From Alkalicoccobacillus plakortidis (GTDB lineage Bacteria > Bacillota > Bacilli > Bacillales > Bacillaceae_D), in contig NZ_JAMQJY010000001.1 in assembly GCF_023703085.1 (NCBI RefSeq), positions 1,736,001 through 1,800,000 on the forward strand: 64,000 nt of DNA, read 5' to 3'. Below, piece after piece: positions 9,066 through 57,362 of the stretch. The notes under the pieces were generated by a model that was not told where the DNA came from, did not search any database, and saw only the letters and a list, made by a program, of their open reading frames with translations. A program made the position numbers and the translations under genes. Within the stretch, counting starts at the first letter, position 1. The number at the start of each line of letters is the position of its first letter.

Positions 9066-9215
9066 TTATTGTTGAAACACTCTAATTACAAGGACTAAAG
9101 TCCCTAAAATGAATGATAGCTGCTTTTCTCCTTCAATAGTCACAAGGTATTTTTTCCCATTATAAAAGGATGAAACAAAGTGACTCTCATACGTTATCGC
9201 CCGGTTATTGTTGAT
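9066..9215 (-). CDS. Possible small protein downstream of yitT, start unclear
   Basis: A reading frame of about 49 codons ends at 9066 and overlaps the last codons of yitT in another frame. It contains FYNGKKYLVTIEGEKQL followed by a hydrophobic tail ILGTLVLVIRVFQQ, which reads like protein, not noise. AGGAGAAGG stands 8 nt before an ATC codon at 9215, but there is no ATG, GTG or TTG in a good place, so either a rare start or a base error at the start must be assumed. I do not recognise a family. Confidence 0.3.
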   Translation of the reverse strand: MNNNRAITYESHFVSSFYNGKKYLVTIEGEKQLSFILGTLVLVIRVFQQ

Positions 9216-10050
9216 TTTTAAAGCCTTCTCCTAGTACTTCAGTTGCGTTAGAAACAATGACAAAAGCATTAGGATCTGCTAAGCGAACAACTTCCTTGAG
9301 TTTTGTAACCTCATTTTGGTTCACTACACACATTAACACAGGTCTTTCCTCATTTGTATATCCACCATATCCACTGAGTTTTGTAACACCCCGATCAATA
9401 TCCCGAAGAATATGTTGCCTAACATTCTCCTCATCTTTAGAAATGATATAAGCAATTTTCGCATAACCAAAACCCATCTGAACTAAATCAATTGTTTTAC
9501 CCGTTACAAATAATGAAATTAACGCATAAAGAGCTAATTCCAAACCAAACACAATGGCTGATGAAATGACAACAAGTCCATCAATTAAAGCAACTGAAAG
9601 ACCAGATGTTAGACCCGTGTATTTCTGTAGAATTTGAGCAGCAAGGTCCGTCCCCCCCGTGCTAGCTCTTGCTCTGAATGCTAATCCAAGACCTGCACCA
9701 ATACCAATTCCACCAAAAAGCGCCCCGAGTAAAGGGTCTGTAAATCCAACATCCCAATCACGGGTTAAGAAGACTACAAACGGAAGAAACAGGGTTCCAA
9801 CCAGGGTTTTTGTTCCGTAAGATAAACCTCCTAATAATAATAGACCTGCAACAAAAAGCGGAATATTAAACGCCCATTGAATATAAGCAGGCTCAATGCC
9901 CGTCAGATTAAAAACAATCGTGCTAATTCCACTGACACCACCAGGAGCAATTTGATTAGGTAATAAAAATAAGTTAAATGCAATCGCAACGATAGCAGAG
10001 CCAGCTAAAATATATAGATAATCGGCAATTAGCCGACGAGCAGTTTTCAT
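9205..10050 (-). CDS. yitT: YitT/DUF161 family membrane protein
   Basis: 281 residues. Five or six membrane segments in the first about 170 residues (YILAGSAIVAIAFNLFLLPN, then LALYALISLFVTG) precede a cytosolic domain (about 190-275) with GYGGYTNEERPVLMCVVNQ, a pattern typical of YitT proteins. The C-terminal DUF2179 domain is thought to bind a small ligand; transported substrate, if any, is unknown. Intact, with its own leader; the repeat array lies upstream of its start. Paralogues are frequent in Bacillus, so the exact symbol is uncertain. Confidence 0.82.
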   Translation of the reverse strand: MKTARRLIADYLYILAGSAIVAIAFNLFLLPNQIAPGGVSGISTIVFNLTGIEPAYIQWAFNIPLFVAGLLLLGGLSYGTKTLVGTLFLPFVVFLTRDWDVGFTDPLLGALFGGIGIGAGLGLAFRARASTGGTDLAAQILQKYTGLTSGLSVALIDGLVVISSAIVFGLELALYALISLFVTGKTIDLVQMGFGYAKIAYIISKDEENVRQHILRDIDRGVTKLSGYGGYTNEERPVLMCVVNQNEVTKLKEVVRLADPNAFVIVSNATEVLGEGFKNQQ

Positions 10051-10220
10051 ACAAGTGTTCTCCTTCTATTCAAGTTGATATGTAAGTAAAAGTCCGGATG
10101 TAGTATAGCACTGCCTCCCCCTATTGTAAATGAGCCTCAAGTGACGCGGTAGCAGAGTGACGTATATCTTTAGTTTGTGCAAAAACTTTTAAAAAAGAAG
10201 GTGGTATGAAATTTTGGAGG

Positions 10221-10884
10221 GCGAGAACATCGGGTTTTAGCAAGACGGATTGAGGAGTGGTATGAGGTGAGGGAGAAAGCAAGAAAGAAATAAATCTGTT
10301 CATTAAGAAGGAGCACGTTTTAAACAAGAGCCCAGTCTTCATAGCAAGACGGATTGGTTGTTAAGCAAGGAGCGTATGCAAGAAAGAGCCGCTTCCAAAT
10401 AAGAAGAAGCACATGTTTAACAAGAACTCAGCCTCCATACCAAGAACCCGAGCTCCATAACAAGATCCCCGCTCTGTTACCACCATGAACGGAGCAGCAG
10501 CGAGAGGAAGATCATAAAAGCATGACCCCCTGCCTAACCAAGAAGGAGCACGATAATAGCAAGAGCATCTCATTTAAAACCAGACGGATTGGTTGTTAAG
10601 CAAGAGCTTAGTGGAGAAAGCAAGAAGGAATCGCGTTTAATCAAGATGGATTAGGTGCAAAGCAAGAACATCGTTCTGTTAGCAAGAAGGAACACAGGTC
10701 AAGCAAGAGGCAGGTAATGAAATCAAGAAAGAATCCCTTCCAATTAAGAAGGAGCACGTATTTACCAAGAACCTTGCCTCCATACCAAGAACCCTAACTC
10801 CGTGCCAAGAGCCCAAGCTCCATAACAAGATCCCCGCTCTGTTACCAAGATGAACGCATCCCATCAAGACTTCATCCCATACTC
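10221..10884. repeat. Array of about 32 degenerate 20-21 bp units with a CAAGA anchor
   Basis: From about 10221 the motif CAAGA (sometimes TAAGA or CGAGA) recurs at 10241, 10280, 10304, 10325, 10345, 10366, then regularly every 20-21 bp through 10421, 10441, 10461 and on to 10826, 10846 and 10865. The 15-16 bases between anchors vary but are drawn from a few words: GGAGCACG at 10304, 10539 and 10745; CGGATTGG at 10345 and 10581; ATCCCCGCTCTGTTAC at 10461 and 10826; CTCCATA at 10421, 10441, 10766 and 10806. Blocks of words recur in the same order. No hairpin structure, no strict repeat-spacer pattern and no coding potential is evident. It lies 3' of the prfB terminator and upstream of yitT and fills the 900 bp gap. 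Confidence 0.85.
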
Positions 10885-10905: not shown

Positions 10906-10938
10906 AAAAAAGAACGATCCTAAATATAGGACCGTTCG
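10906..10938 (-). terminator. Terminator after prfB
   Basis: On the minus strand arms GAACGGTCCT and AGGATCGTTC with a short AT loop are followed by TTTTTT. The hairpin separates prfB from the repeat array. Confidence 0.85.
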
Positions 10939-10951
10939 CAGTTGTTATTCA

Positions 10952-12056
10952 TCACAGTGCCAGAGAAGAACGTAGGTACGCGTCAATAAACGGGTCAAGA
11001 TCGCCGTCCATTACGGAACCAGTGTTGCCAATCTCATGGTTTGTTCTGTGGTCTTTTACCATACTGTATGGATGGAAAACATAGGAGCGGATTTGGCTAC
11101 CCCAACCTATGTCTTTTTGTTCGCCACGAATTTCTGCTAGTTCTTGCTGTTGCTCTTCAATCTTGAGCTGATATAGCTTGGCTTTCATCATCTTCATCGC
11201 TTGCTCACGGTTTTTGATCTGTGAGCGTTCGTTTTGGCACGTTACCACTGTATTTGTGGGAAGGTGTGTGATACGAACAGCTGAATCCGTTGTATTAATA
11301 TGCTGACCACCAGCACCACTTGCCCGGTACGTATCAACTTTTAAGTCCTCTGTTAATATTTCTATCTCGACATTTTCATCTAACTCAGGCATCACTTCAC
11401 ATGATACAAAGGATGTATGTCTGCGACCAGATGAATCAAAAGGAGAGATACGAACAAGTCGATGCACGCCTTTCTCAGCCTTTAAATAGCCATACGCATT
11501 ATGGCCTTTAATTAATAGCGTGACACTCTTTACACCTGCTTCATCACCAGGCAAGTAGTTCATTGTTTCTACTTTAAATCCTTTTTGGTCTGCCCATCTC
11601 GTATACATGCGCAGTAACATGGAAGCCCAGTCCTGTGATTCCGTACCACCTGCACCGGGATGCAACTCAAGAATTGCGTTATTCCGGTCGTATGGTTCAC
11701 TTAAAAGAAGTTGAAGTTCAAACTGGTCAATTTCTTTTACAAGCTCACCAACACCTGTTGCGAGTTCCGCTTCAAGTTCTTTATCTGCTTCTTCTTTTAC
11801 TAATTCATAGGAAACTTCTAGATCTTCGTATGTTGTTTCCATTGCAAGGAATGTATCTACATGTTCCTTAAGACCATTTGATTCATTAATAACAGATTGA
11901 GCGGAATCCTGATCGTTCCAGAATTCCGGGTCCGTCATTTTTTCCTCTAATTCAGCAATTCGCTCTTGCTTCTCGTCGAGGTCAAAGTGACCCCCTAAAA
12001 TTAATAATCCGCTTCTGTATTGAAGCAAGCTCTTGCTTAATCTCTACCATATCCAT
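10952..12056 (-). CDS. prfB: Peptide chain release factor 2, with programmed +1 frameshift
   Basis: RF2 recognises UGA and UAA stop codons. Translation begins at ATG 12056, reads 24 codons ending FRGSL, meets an in-frame TGA at 11984-11982, and continues one base later as [14 protein letters not shown]. The site has the classic CTT-TGA-C slip and an AGGGGG Shine-Dalgarno-like stimulator just ahead; this is autoregulation by RF2 level and not an error. The GGQ catalytic loop is seen in [15 protein letters not shown]-terminal sequence [16 protein letters not shown] is typical. It follows secA with a 34 bp gap, the standard Bacillus order. Confidence 0.96.
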
Positions 12057-12090
12057 AGCTTTGGACCCCCGCAATTACCGTACCTGAATC

Positions 12091-28772: not shown

Positions 28773-29614
28773 TTACTGCAGCAGATCCCAATGCTACCTT
28801 CTCCTAGATGTGTACCGATTACTGGCCCAAAGAAACTGATAGAGATCGGGATATCTGTGTGTATCCCTTTAAGCATTGATACTATTTCCTGTGCTTTTTC
28901 TATACGGTTTGCATGAATAACGGTTATTTCTGTTACTTTGCGAGAGTCTGCATCCTCTTTTAACAGATCAAAGATTCGAGAGAGTGCTTTTTTCTCTGTA
29001 CGTACTTTTTCATAAGGGACAATTTCTCCTTCAACAAATTGAAGGATCGGCTTGATTTTTAACATATTGCCTACGATTCGCTGTGCACCACTTAATCGTC
29101 CACCACGGTGCAAATGATTCAGATCATCCACCATAAAATACGCCATCACACGTTGTTTAAGATCTTGTAAATGCTTGATAATCTCTGCTGCTGTTTGTCC
29201 GTCTCTTGCTAGCCGCGCTGCCTCTAAGACAAAATAAGATTGAGGCGCACAGCTTATTTCGGTATCAAACCCTAAAATCTCGACACCTTCCACCATATCA
29301 TCAGCACTAAGAGCTGTTTGGTACGTTCCACTTATTTTAGATGATAAGTGAATCGAAATAATTTCTTCATATCCGTCCTTCGCCAATGATTCAAATAACT
29401 GGACAAAGTTCCCGATTGCCGGCTGTGAAGTAGTTGGTAACACTTCATTTGCTGCCATCTCTTGATAAAATTGCTCCGTGCCTAAATCAACTAGCTCTTG
29501 ATAGGCTTCGTTCCCTATTACTACATTTAGGGGAATGATATGAATATCTTGTTCCTTAGCGGTTTCATCCGATATGTATGCGGTACTGTCTGTAACAATC
29601 GCTGTTTTTTTCAT
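28773..29614 (-). CDS. degV: DegV-family fatty-acid-binding protein, frame open into comFA
   Basis: Binds a fatty acid for the fatty-acid kinase FakA or related systems. MKKTAIVTDSTAYISDE at ATG 29614, LPTTSQPAIGNF, HRGGRLSG and GTHLGEGSIGI are DegV hallmarks. In the given sequence the frame does not stop but continues through SNHVFRSVKS into ComFA, making a 746-residue fusion. One more base just before CTGCTGCAGTAA would end DegV at 28773 with 280 residues, the normal length, so a single-base loss is the simplest explanation. The gene is preceded by a tandem copy of its own start. Confidence 0.88.
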
Positions 29615-29829
29615 AAGGTTCCTCACTTTTAATGTAACTTTGCTGCCATCTCTTGATAAAATTGCTCCGTGCCTAAATCTACTAACTCTTGATAGGCTTC
29701 GTTCCCTATTACTACATTTAGGGGAATGATATGAATATCTTGTTCCTTAGCCGTTTCATCCGATATGTATGCGGTACTGTCTGTAACAATCGCTGTTTTT
29801 TTCATAAGGTTCCTCACTTTTAATGTAAC
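29448..29829 (-). repeat. 191-bp tandem duplication of the degV leader and first 59 codons
   Basis: Positions 29448-29638 and 29639-29829 are direct copies, period 191, differing at about three bases (around 29498-29504 against 29689-29695, and GCGG against GCCG). Both contain the ribosome site GTGAGG and the degV start. The few differences suggest an old duplication and not an assembly stutter. Confidence 0.95.
29629..29805 (-). pseudogene. Truncated upstream copy of degV
   Basis: ATG 29805 opens the first copy of the duplication. It reads the first 54 or so residues of DegV, then AKLH and a stop where the second copy of the leader begins. The product, if made, lacks the fatty-acid site. 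Translation could still deliver ribosomes to the true degV start 15 nt downstream of its stop, so it may act as a leader ORF. Confidence 0.85.
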
Positions 29830-46987: not shown

Positions 46988-49898
46988 GTGAGTATCATTA
47001 ACATTCGTCATGTTGTCGCAGGCACTTCACCCGTTGTCTTAGCTTTCTTGATGTCATCAGTACCTTTTCAATCTGCCTTAGCTAATTCAAACTATAAGGT
47101 CACTCAATACGACCTTGATTTTAATAATGTTGTCGAGAAACAAGTGAAGGCAAACGCCCAAACAGATAAGAGTTATGATGTCTATATTCATGCAGACGGA
47201 GTAAATCTTGATGCTGGAGGTAAAACTGGAACATCTAAGGGAGCTTGGAATGTACGTGGTGGTGCTGGATCACAATCTTGGAAAGTTGGCCAAACGTCAA
47301 ACGGTCAAAAGCTGACGATTCTGGGAAGCAAAAAAGCTAATGATGGTTCTACATGGTACCAAATTAGATATGATCGCACATGGAAAAATGCAAGCCCTGA
47401 AGATGTTGCTCATTATCTAAATCCGAATAATGTTCAACCTGGAACAAGCAATTTTTATCAATTTTTAAATTTAGGTGAGACAGCAAACCTTAGTGCACAG
47501 TCTATTAATAATCAACTTCTTAATGGAAAAGGATCATTATCTGGACAAGGACAAGCCTTTATCAATGCGGCTAAATCAAATGGTGTAAACGAAATTTATT
47601 TAGTCTCTCATGCTTTGCTCGAAACCGGAAATGGCTCTTCACCATTAGCTAGAGGAATCAATTATAATGGAAAAACGGTTTATAATATGTACGGAATTGG
47701 CGCGTATGATGGAAATGCCGAGCAAGCAGGTGCCGCTTACGCATATAGTCAAGGTTGGTTCACAAAGGAAGCCGCTATTGTCGGTGGAGCAAAGTTTGTT
47801 GGAAACAACTACATAGCAAAAGGTCAGAACACGCTTTATAAAATGCGTTGGAATCCTGATGCTCCTGCTACCCATCAGTACGCGACAGACATCGGCTGGG
47901 CAGAGAAGCAAACATCTCGAATGGCTAGCATGTACAATTTGGTTGAAGACTACACTCTTCATTACGATATTCCTCAATACAAAAATCAACCAGGAACAAC
48001 ACCTGACTTTTCAAAAATTGATGATAATCAAAAGAAAGACGGGACTCCTGGAACAACAACAGCCAACTTAAATGTACGTTCTGAGCCTAGCACTAGTGGT
48101 AACCGTCTGACTCTACTTCCGTCCGGCACAAAACTAACCATTATTAGTAAAAAAGAAGGTTGGTATCAAATCCATGCAAATGGAGTAGACGGCTGGGTAT
48201 CTGCTGAGTTTGTAAAAGTTAATGCTAGCACACCTACTGAAAACAACAATACAGACAAAGAGCAAGTTAAAGATGATAGCAATTACGATGTTATTGGTAC
48301 TGGTACAACAACAGCTCGCCTAAATCTGCGTTCTTCTAATAAGATCGAGGCTAACAACATCGTGACTACACTAAACAACAATCAAAACGTCGACATCCTT
48401 GAGAAAAGCGGCACTTGGTTAAAGGTGAATGCTGCTGGCAAAATCGGTTGGGTTTCCGCTCAGTATGTGAAAACCGCTTCATCTACTACTAAGCCATCTG
48501 AACCAAAAGAAGACACAAAGGCTGAAGACAAGGTCATCTCTACCGGTACCACTACGGCTCGTCTAAATCTGCGTTCTTCTAACAAGATCGAAGCAAATAA
48601 TATCGTGACTACATTAAACAATAATCAAAAAGTCGACATCCTTGAGAAAAGTGGCAGTTGGTTAAAAGTTAAAGCCTCTGGCAAAACTGGTTGGGTTTCC
48701 GCTCAGTATGTGAAAACTGCCTCATCTACTGCTAAGCCATCTGAACCAAAAGAAGAAGCAAAGGCAGAAGACAAGGTCATCTCTACCGGTACCACTACGG
48801 CTCGTCTAAATCTGCGTTCTTCTAGCAAGATCGAAGCAAATAATATCGTGACTACATTAAACAATAATCAAAAAGTCGACATCCTTGAGAAAAGTGGTAA
48901 CTGGTTAAAAGTTAAGGCTGCCGGCAAAACGGGTTGGGTTTCGGCTCAATATGTGAAAACCGGTTCTACTACAAAAGCACCTACACCATCCGTTGAAAAA
49001 GCAACTGATACAGGCACAACAACGGCTCGTTTGAACATGCGTTCTTCAGCTAAAGTTGCAAGCAACAACTTAATTACTACCCTCAACAACAACCAAAAAG
49101 TTGAGATCATTGAGAAAAGTGGCAGTTGGTTAAAGGTTAAGGCCTCTGGCAAAACTGGTTGGGTTTCGGCTCAGTATGTGAATGCAGGTTCTACTACAAA
49201 AGCACCAACTCAATCTGTAGATAAATCAACTGGCACCGGCACAACAACGGCTCGTTTGAACATGCGTTCTTCAGCTAAAGTTGCAAGCAACAACCTAATC
49301 ACTACGCTCAATAACAACCAAAAAGTTGAGATCATTGAGAAGAGTGGCAGCTGGTTAAAAGTTAAAGCCTCTGGCAAAACTGGTTGGGTTTCGGCTCAAT
49401 ATGTGAATACAAGCTCTACACCAACAGCATCTGCACCTAAACAAGAAGCAAAAAAAGAAGTGAAAACAGCAAGTACTGGAACAACTACTGCTCGTTTGAA
49501 CCTTCGCTCGTCTGCAAAGGTCGAAAACAACAACTTAATCACAACTCTTAATAACAATCAAAAAGTTGAGATTGTCGAGAAAAACGGTAACTGGTTAAAG
49601 GTTAAAGCCTCCGGTAAAACTGGTTGGGTTTCGGCTCAGTATGTGAATACAGGTTCTACACCAACAGCATCGGCACCTAAACAGGAAGCAAAAAAAGAAG
49701 TGAAAACAGCAAGCACTGGAACAACTACTGCTCGTTTGAACCTTCGCTCGTCTGCAAAAGTAGCAGCAGATAATTTTATTGTCACACTAGCTCAGAACGC
49801 CAAAGTAGAAATCCTCGACAAACAAGGTAACTGGTATCAAGTGAAATCCGGTGGCAAAACCGGCTTGGGTCTCAACAGAATTTATAAAAGCTAGCTGA
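46988..49898 (+). CDS. Secreted N-acetylglucosaminidase with eight SH3 repeats (LytD-like autolysin)
   Basis: Peptidoglycan hydrolase. A signal peptide (to about FQSALA, residue 32) precedes an N-terminal segment and a GH73-type glucosaminidase domain (about 180-330) with the catalytic Glu in LLETGNGSSPLARG and NMYGIGAYDGNA. Eight bacterial SH3 domains follow from about residue 355, each with TTTARLNLRSS and GWVSAQYVK, likely wall anchors. An extra base at 49863-49868 (GGCTTGG) spoils the end; removal gives GKTGWVSTEFIKAS and a stop at 49898. The start is uncertain: GTG 46988 lies inside its ribosome site, and AGAGGTGAG would better serve an ATT at 46994. Confidence 0.9.
48050..49895 (+). repeat. 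Tandem SH3-coding repeats, period about 222-246 bp
   Basis: Repeat starts fall near 48050 (divergent), 48297, 48543, 48786, 49010, 49234, 49472 and 49716. Neighbours 48543/48786, 49010/49234 and 49472/49716 are almost identical in DNA, linkers included, pointing to recent pairwise duplication. Such DNA is prone to copy-number change and to assembly collapse. Confidence 0.9.
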
Positions 49899-57163: not shown

Positions 57164-57214
57164 GTGGGATGAGGGCGAGTGATCGGTTACAACCTTGGGC
57201 AGTTTTGCTTTTCT

Positions 57215-57362
57215 CATGAGCGGTTCTTACCATGTTATGAGCGCTTCTCCACCTCTCATGAGCGCTTCTCCACCTTTCATGAGCGCTTCTCCACCTTTCA
57301 TGAGCGCTTCTCCACCTTTCATGAGCGCTTCTCTACCTTTCATGAGCGCTTCTCTACCTTTT
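57215..57362. repeat. Seven-unit 21-bp array with CATGAG anchor, overlapping a gene end
   Basis: CATGAG (or TATGAG) recurs at 57215, 57236, 57257, 57278, 57299, 57320 and 57341, exactly every 21 bp; each is followed by CGCTTCTCCACC or CGCTTCTCTACC. The last unit supplies the TAG stop of the minus-strand glycosyltransferase at 57354. The layout CAnGAGCnC...TCCA is shared with units at 10441 and 10806 in the larger array. In some frames it would encode heptapeptides such as HERFSTF, which I take as a by-product of the 21-bp period. Confidence 0.92.

Follow-up and report, generated by a model that had tools for sequence, protein, structure and literature searches.

The array of phased short words that lies between prfB and a gene that we take to be yitT-like in Alkalicoccobacillus plakortidis belongs to a dispersed class of noncoding, iteron-like arrays, whose units step by two helical turns and whose words are specific to lineage and site. 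It was found in a window of 64,000 nucleotides, which is the whole stretch of DNA analysed. The main word in Alkalicoccobacillus is CAAGA, which is used beside other words, and the common word elsewhere is CGCNCAWA. The arrays have grown as blocks of two, three or about a dozen units were duplicated, and the word evolves slowly against the spacer. The interpretation that we favour, with moderate confidence, is that the arrays are same-face sites for putative oligomerising DNA-binding proteins, grown by block duplication, and neutral or word-independent processes are disfavoured.

Exact CAAGA occurs 23 times on the forward strand of the array region (first at 10241, last at 10865), and for 14 of the 23 the next CAAGA follows at exactly 20 or 21 bp, compared with 0.027 such pairs on average, and never more than 2, in 2000 dinucleotide shuffles. 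The remainder of the window has 75 CAAGA on this strand, none with the 20/21-bp spacing, and the period within the array is strongest at 20.1 bp. These counts uphold the original prediction of CAAGA anchors phased at 20-21 bp. Its start at 10221 is backed by a degenerate CGAGA unit read from the sequence at 10222, and its figure of about 32 units holds when degenerate anchors are counted but not for exact CAAGA. The array proved to be noncoding, as predicted. Self-alignment yielded three block matches, two of which are listed in Table 1 and the third of which joins 10304-10349 to 10400-10445 with an 80% match; this bears out the recurring word order that had been described and supports growth by block duplication. 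A CRISPR array, which requires long identical repeats with unique spacers, was rejected on account of the five-base word and duplicated spacers, and a BLAST search of plasmids gave no match to the array. The word of the second phased array in the window is close to the order-wide CGCNCAWA word without matching it exactly. Two further tandem repeats were observed in the window, one at 29448-29829 with a 191-bp near-perfect duplication and one of 225-243 bp at 48298-49835 that may be coding.

Table 1. Coordinates of the features in the window and of related arrays in other stretches
Feature	Position	Strand	Remarks
CAAGA array	10221..10884	+	about 31 units, step 20-21 bp; CAAGA exact in 23; anchor extends to A-N-CAAGA
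Duplicated block	10379..10491	+	second copy 10724..10856, 74% identity (self-alignment)
Duplicated block	10305..10369	+	second copy 10540..10604, 77% identity (self-alignment)
prfB (release factor 2)	10952..12028	-	TIGR00020, 541 bits; 3' end faces array
Presumed YitT-like membrane protein gene	9205..10050	-	downstream of array
Terminator-like site after prfB	10912..10937	-	11-pair stem (5 G-C), then T run; array begins just beyond
Promoter-like site before yitT-like gene	10102..10130	-	TTTACA-17-TATACT; array ends upstream of site
Second phased array	57214..57361	-	7 units of 21 bp; - strand word CGCTCATGA
Site 2 stretches	L155 12335-13299; L235 10976-11201; L236 (reverse) 11213-12075; L237 9971-11228; L238 4374-5311
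Bacillus suaedae super-repeats	L066 3224-3796; L178 4403-5216; L178 10003-10323

Four terminator-like sites were found compared with 1.4 expected; besides the one that follows prfB, the other three are weaker (7 pairs each) and lie within the array. The promoter-like site is a consensus match only, with one found compared with a shuffle average of 2.4. The listed start of the prfB open reading frame is probably not the true one, because the gene carries AGGGGGTCACTTTGAC at 11981-11996 of the reverse strand, presumably of the known programmed-frameshift type. The presumed YitT-like protein had no NCBIfam model at the cut-off and is 91% identical in A. murimartini, its nearest named relative in a scan of genome contigs. 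In A. murimartini, A. porphyridii and A. gibsonii neither a gene nor such an array was seen in the gap between these two genes, which makes the window array either a recent gain or one that was lost elsewhere. The same gap in Bacillus suaedae is occupied by GCTCATAA units and in Evansella vedderi by CGCACATA units, both with a 21-bp step.

A pattern search of the genome and its relatives, of the kind that the original prediction had proposed, yielded numerous further arrays in A. plakortidis and its congeners, so that the window array is not alone of its kind. The A. plakortidis genome contains 238 forward and 274 reverse overlapping matches to a three-anchor CAAGA pattern versus 1+0 for the reversed pattern, and 82+90 versus 0+0 for a four-anchor pattern. 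Three-anchor counts in four congeners were 45+11, 81+126, 21+40 and 412+641, with 0 to 6 for the reversed pattern. Altogether 22 of the 40 genomes searched (own included) had a three-anchor match; outside the genus only G026 (66+145) and G023 (22+0) exceeded 10, and the reversed pattern reached 17 in G030 and 14 in G032. In 474 kb of the A. plakortidis genome, consisting of stretches mostly picked for listed arrays, same-strand CAAGA pairs numbered 7, 168, 186 and 2 at distances of 19, 20, 21 and 22 bp, 276 at 41 bp and 159 at 62 bp, with fewer than 10 in most other bins, and pairs on opposite strands showed no phasing. These distances support the two-helical-turn step that had been read from the window array. 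Dividing 32 CAAGA arrays into units gave 638, of which 298 are 21, 290 are 20, 32 are 19 and 18 are 22 bp long; as this segmentation was forced to 19-22 bp, the pair distances are the fair test of the step. Arrays reach 47 units, and word order is common to arrays at different loci (68% over 273 bp). Polarity along the replichores was ruled out, as arrays of both strands are intermixed along the genome.

The step was also recovered by a scan that is blind to the word, which picked out 32 regions stepped at 19-22 bp in the same 474 kb, compared with 1, 0, 1, 1 and 0 regions for steps of 15-18, 23-26, 25-28, 29-32 and 33-36 bp. The overlapping class of 17-20 bp gave 5 regions and the double step of 40-43 bp gave 23. 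Words other than CAAGA on which arrays of this genome are built include ATCGTTTCA, ATTGCTCCA, ACATGCRAG, GATGTAT and more.

The placement of these arrays was surveyed with simple gene calls for 41 arrays of the genome, one of which was dropped for lying at a stretch end. None of the remaining 40 lies mostly inside a called gene. Their gaps are convergent in 16 cases, codirectional in 21 and divergent in 3, compared with 32, 149 and 50 among all 231 gaps of at least 60 bp (array gaps included); at least two gaps have two arrays each, and one left neighbour is 5.4 kb off. The suggestion that arrays always sit between gene ends thus fails, with only 16 of the 40 in convergent gaps.

In order to describe the arrays at orthologous positions, we refer to the A. 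plakortidis genome as G000 and to its congeners A. gibsonii, A. murimartini, a fourth congener and A. porphyridii as G001, G002, G003 and G004. A 20-kb region with three CAAGA arrays has the same order in all four congeners, partially so in G004. At site 1 all CAAGA are on one strand in G000, G002 and G001, where they number 23, 16 and 28; in G003 there are 26 and 9 on the two strands, within a 5.7-kb gap. Site 3, an array in a divergent gap, has 38, 25, 37, 34 and 10 CAAGA in G000, G002, G001, G003 and G004 (the last count being cut by a contig end) and none on the other strand, and it adjoins a guanidine-I riboswitch in G000, G001, G002 and G003. At site 2, G000 has 30 CAAGA and a further one on the opposite strand, and the other species have 0 to 3. 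Its position is occupied in G001 and G003 by TTGTTGATTC-type units after a terminator, in G002 by a short series of TTTRCTGAT units that resemble these, in a gap of 225 bp and with a step judged by eye, and in G004 by units with GGTGCGAT, GGAGCGAT and GAAACGAT. The word-blind scan gave site 2 steps of 20, 20 and 20.6 bp in G001, G003 and G004. Site 2 in the five species thus has phased units on three different words: one place, a constant step and differing words. Orthologous arrays in sister species therefore have the same word at two sites and different words at the third.

An AT-rich head, TAAGGAA-(N)-AAAATG-NN-CATTTTT, stands within or before some arrays, with 8, 8, 16 and 6 copies in G000, G001, G002 and G003 and none in G004 or in the 35 genomes outside the genus in the 40-genome search. 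The two central bases of its palindromic part, AAAAATG-NN-CATTTTT after TAAGGAA, were seen to vary in L155 (sites 1 and 2), L235, L236 and L237. The dyad AAATGNNCATTT occurs eight times in 464 kb of the A. plakortidis genome, each time within a CAAGA array or under 170 bp ahead of one. Six of 32 sampled arrays have a dyad or head, and the other 26, the window array among them, have no head.

Outside the genus, CAAGA is one word among others. Of 397 genomes from 135 genera of the order to which Bacillus belongs, 30 genomes in 13 genera had the four-anchor CAAGA pattern, a count that includes some plain tandem repeats and possibly coding matches, and 15 genomes had the reversed word with the same step, which indicates that CAAGA is not special beyond the genus. 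Three copies of CGCNCANA at 19-22 bp were sought in 150 genomes of the order, from 83 genera, and occur in 20 genomes and 15 genera, patchily within genera; these 150 genomes gave 942 matches versus 23 for the reversed pattern (in 8 genomes). The A. plakortidis genome itself has 0+0 matches to this triple and 0+2 to its reversal. Seven of 46 named relatives carry it (B. suaedae, E. halocellulosilytica, Bacillus sp. V3-13, [Bacillus] enclensis, Amphibacillus sp. MSJ-3, Rossellomorea aquimaris and E. vedderi), as does one of 119 genomes of a phylum sample, through a single GC-rich match. CGCNCAWA pairs numbered 2, 26, 100 and 1 at 19, 20, 21 and 22 bp; there were none at 5-18 or 23-38 bp, and 60 of the 129 pairs come from stretches fetched otherwise than via that pattern. 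Among the matches listed, its fourth base appears by eye to be often uniform within an array and to vary between the arrays of one genome (CGCGCATA, CGCTCATA, CGCCCATA, CGCACATA).

Presumed noncoding arrays in 1.54 Mb of other genera, drawn partly from array-rich genomes, had steps of 20 bp (6 arrays), 21 bp (11), 25 bp (1), 31 bp (1), 42 bp (1) and 52 bp (6), after 7 of 33 rows had been set aside for lying in an open reading frame with a period divisible by three. A 40-bp period was seen once, in a congener, and 320 kb from outside the order had no array of any step. The generalisation that all periods are whole helical turns is therefore only partly borne out. The 52-bp arrays come from several genera (L071 16-353, L084 3493-3707, L125 761-1398, L125 2878-3257, L128 2964-3596 and L244 14679-14893) and make 52 bp, about five helical turns, a second preferred period; they are not obviously alike in sequence, and the five that were read, those outside L244, have inverted repeats by eye. 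The super-repeats of B. suaedae measure about 229-242 bp and consist of five GCTCATAA anchors and a further block, which at L178 4350-4600 has a stem-loop, TGGCTGGC...GCCAGCCA.

Neighbouring units share little but A-N-CAAGA. Between neighbours of equal length (60 and 69 pairs), mismatch is 0.07-0.22 per anchor base and 0.22-0.28 at the conserved A, compared with 0.43-0.80 per base elsewhere. Two-unit copies of 41 bp make up many arrays, and in A. porphyridii there are three-unit copies of 62 bp. Comparison of such copies after segmentation gave mismatch of 0.02 at the anchor versus 0.13 in the spacer for 20-mers and 0.05 versus 0.14 for 21-mers; since the segmentation itself favours CAAGA, the comparison was repeated without it, using every CAAGA whose next 15 bases show 70% or more likeness to those 41 bp further along, in stretches chosen for arrays. 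The 145 pairs obtained had a mismatch of 0.012 per CAAGA base versus 0.141 per spacer base, and a shift of 82 bp (116 pairs) gave 0.021 versus 0.132; only 2 pairs passed at 62 bp, too few to be informative. When frequent five-letter words with 25 or more pairs were treated alike, CAAGA was the slowest of the 32, the rest ranging from 0.051 to 0.179. Between species the contrast is about twofold, with 0.08-0.17 per anchor base versus 0.11-0.30 per spacer base; it was reversed in one of 16 directed comparisons, 10 of 26 having too few anchor bases. For the 13 arrays whose copy likeness is low, the anchors deviated from a straight line by a residual of 0.85, versus 0.73 in shuffled unit orders, with p<0.05 in none. 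The prediction that all anchors keep to one face of the helix thus stands from unit to unit, where the step is kept, but does not extend to long-range phase, which is missing where there are no recent copies, the window array included. The spacing constraint on the arrays is local.

A fixed local step, a slow word, orientation on a single strand and a CGCNCAWA word common to many genera together argue for recognition by proteins on one face of the DNA. A single subunit of a putative DNA-binding protein would recognise each word, and subunits would line up along one helix face and touch their neighbours, a contact that would place the local step under selection. One protein cannot read all arrays, since words differ between the arrays of one genome and between species at site 2; the variety of words within a genome and the different words at site 2 point to several readers, or to a read-out of the repeat itself. 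The word would then track the specificity of whichever member of the protein family reads the array. The likely effect, as a guess, would be a nucleoprotein block that insulates adjoining transcription units or organises the chromosome locally. More tentatively, as a possibility that we would not call probable, the arrays may form an order-wide and so far unnamed class, with lineage- or site-specific words on one strand at two helical turns, read by putative fast-evolving oligomerising proteins as a chromosome-wide boundary or anchoring system whose dialects (CAAGA, CGCGCATA, CGCTCATA, ATATCAAGAAA, TTGTTGATTC) are interchangeable at one site.

The likeliest rival account is that of neutral minisatellites, in which lineage-specific slippage or end-joining makes tandem copies of about two turns at favoured sites and the word is merely their incidental shared part. 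Several words per genome, higher-order repeats of 41 and 62 bp typical of satellite turnover, arrays of different words at site 2, patchy distribution inside genera and the lack of long-range phase are all consistent with it, as are the tandem units and block duplication. However, minisatellites would show uniform divergence and a drifting step, and here neighbouring units differ far more in the spacer than in the anchor (a contrast that is weaker between species), the step keeps to 20 or 21 bp, CAAGA changes least among the 32 words in copies, and 15 of 83 genera have the CGCNCANA triple; on balance we consider this account rather unlikely. Words that differ between arrays, and between species at one site, over a constant step would also be expected if the step matters and the word does not, as when short homologies at whole turns allow duplex pairing of arrays or some other word-independent structure. 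The steps of 20-21, about 31 and 52 bp near whole turns fit this idea, but such support is indirect, the 25-bp array is off the rule and CGCNCAWA is common to several genera, which leaves it very improbable. A selfish repeat that spreads among intergenic sites, some copies with a head element, to no use of the host would account for the hundreds of matches in the genome, the word order common to separate loci, and the heads and dyads inside or shortly before arrays; against it are the 26 arrays without a head, the retention of arrays, their strand unchanged, at orthologous sites of up to five species, and the four-anchor pattern being found in only 23 stretches of the viral collection. Neither an empty site nor a terminal repeat came to light, and we judge a selfish repeat quite improbable. 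A further, speculative idea is that the words are recognition sites of type IIG, type III or BREX systems.

The arrays might instead act as RNA, with read-through from upstream producing TCTTG every 20-21 nt (or CAAGA from the other strand) for a binding protein or for folding. Of 15 codirectional CAAGA arrays, 12 have TCTTG on the coding strand, and the reverse strand of the window array, with its three weak terminator-like sites, folds better than shuffled sequence (z -2.65, 20 shuffles). The forward strand folds in an ordinary way (z -0.67, 20 shuffles), a terminator-like site precedes the array, and Rfam gave no match above threshold in the arrays searched, with a chance-level match in the window array and only the guanidine-I riboswitches beside site 3; a role as RNA is accordingly improbable. 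A real or decayed coding repeat of seven residues is scarcely credible. Its nearest case, which comes close to the decayed gene that the original prediction had named as telling against itself, is an open coiled-coil gene between prfB and the yitT-like gene of Thermolongibacillus altinsuensis (L083 3212-3498) that has CAAGA inside a 42-bp coding repeat. This gene was set aside because CAAGA is on the prfB strand there and on the opposite strand in the window, four-anchor matches in that genome number 0+0, and three congeners showed neither gene nor array in the gap. The equal abundance of 20- and 21-bp units, which shifts the frame, does not fit a seven-residue repeat, the mixed steps refute a coding origin of the window array, and no surveyed array lies mostly in a called gene.

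No description of such arrays appeared in searches of open-access literature. If the proteins exist, they would constitute an undescribed DNA-organising system across a large and well-studied order, in which natural word dialects make specificity readable from genomes. If there are no such proteins, a repeat-making process with two-turn steps that spares a short word would need explaining. In either case, the arrays are abundant, easily cloned and easily tested.

Several known systems share features with these arrays. Bacterial intergenic minisatellites, VNTR and MIRU loci are tandem and intergenic, with block duplication and higher-order repeats, and the arrays resemble them in all of these respects but differ in having a 20-21 bp step across genera and a word slower than the spacer. 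REP and BIME elements are palindromic repeats dispersed in many copies between genes; the arrays share the intergenic dispersal and the many copies, but are non-palindromic direct repeats on one strand, except that 52-bp arrays do have inverted repeats by eye. Iterons of plasmid and chromid origins are spaced near whole helical turns beside an AT-rich neighbour. The arrays are likewise head-to-tail direct repeats at about whole helical turns, and differ in their hundreds of dispersed chromosomal matches and in a word that varies by array and lineage; for the window array, whose neighbours are prfB and the yitT-like gene, no initiator gene is adjacent. Iterons serve as short binding sites for one protein, arranged head to tail (PMC6090056). 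MocR-type regulators recognise direct repeats that lie on one side of the DNA at a distance of two or three helical turns, and a genome has several MocR/GabR-type paralogues (PMC5320631). The arrays resemble MocR/GabR operators in having direct repeats two turns apart; the operators have two or three boxes each and the arrays up to 47 units, mostly outside divergent promoter gaps (3 of 40 divergent).
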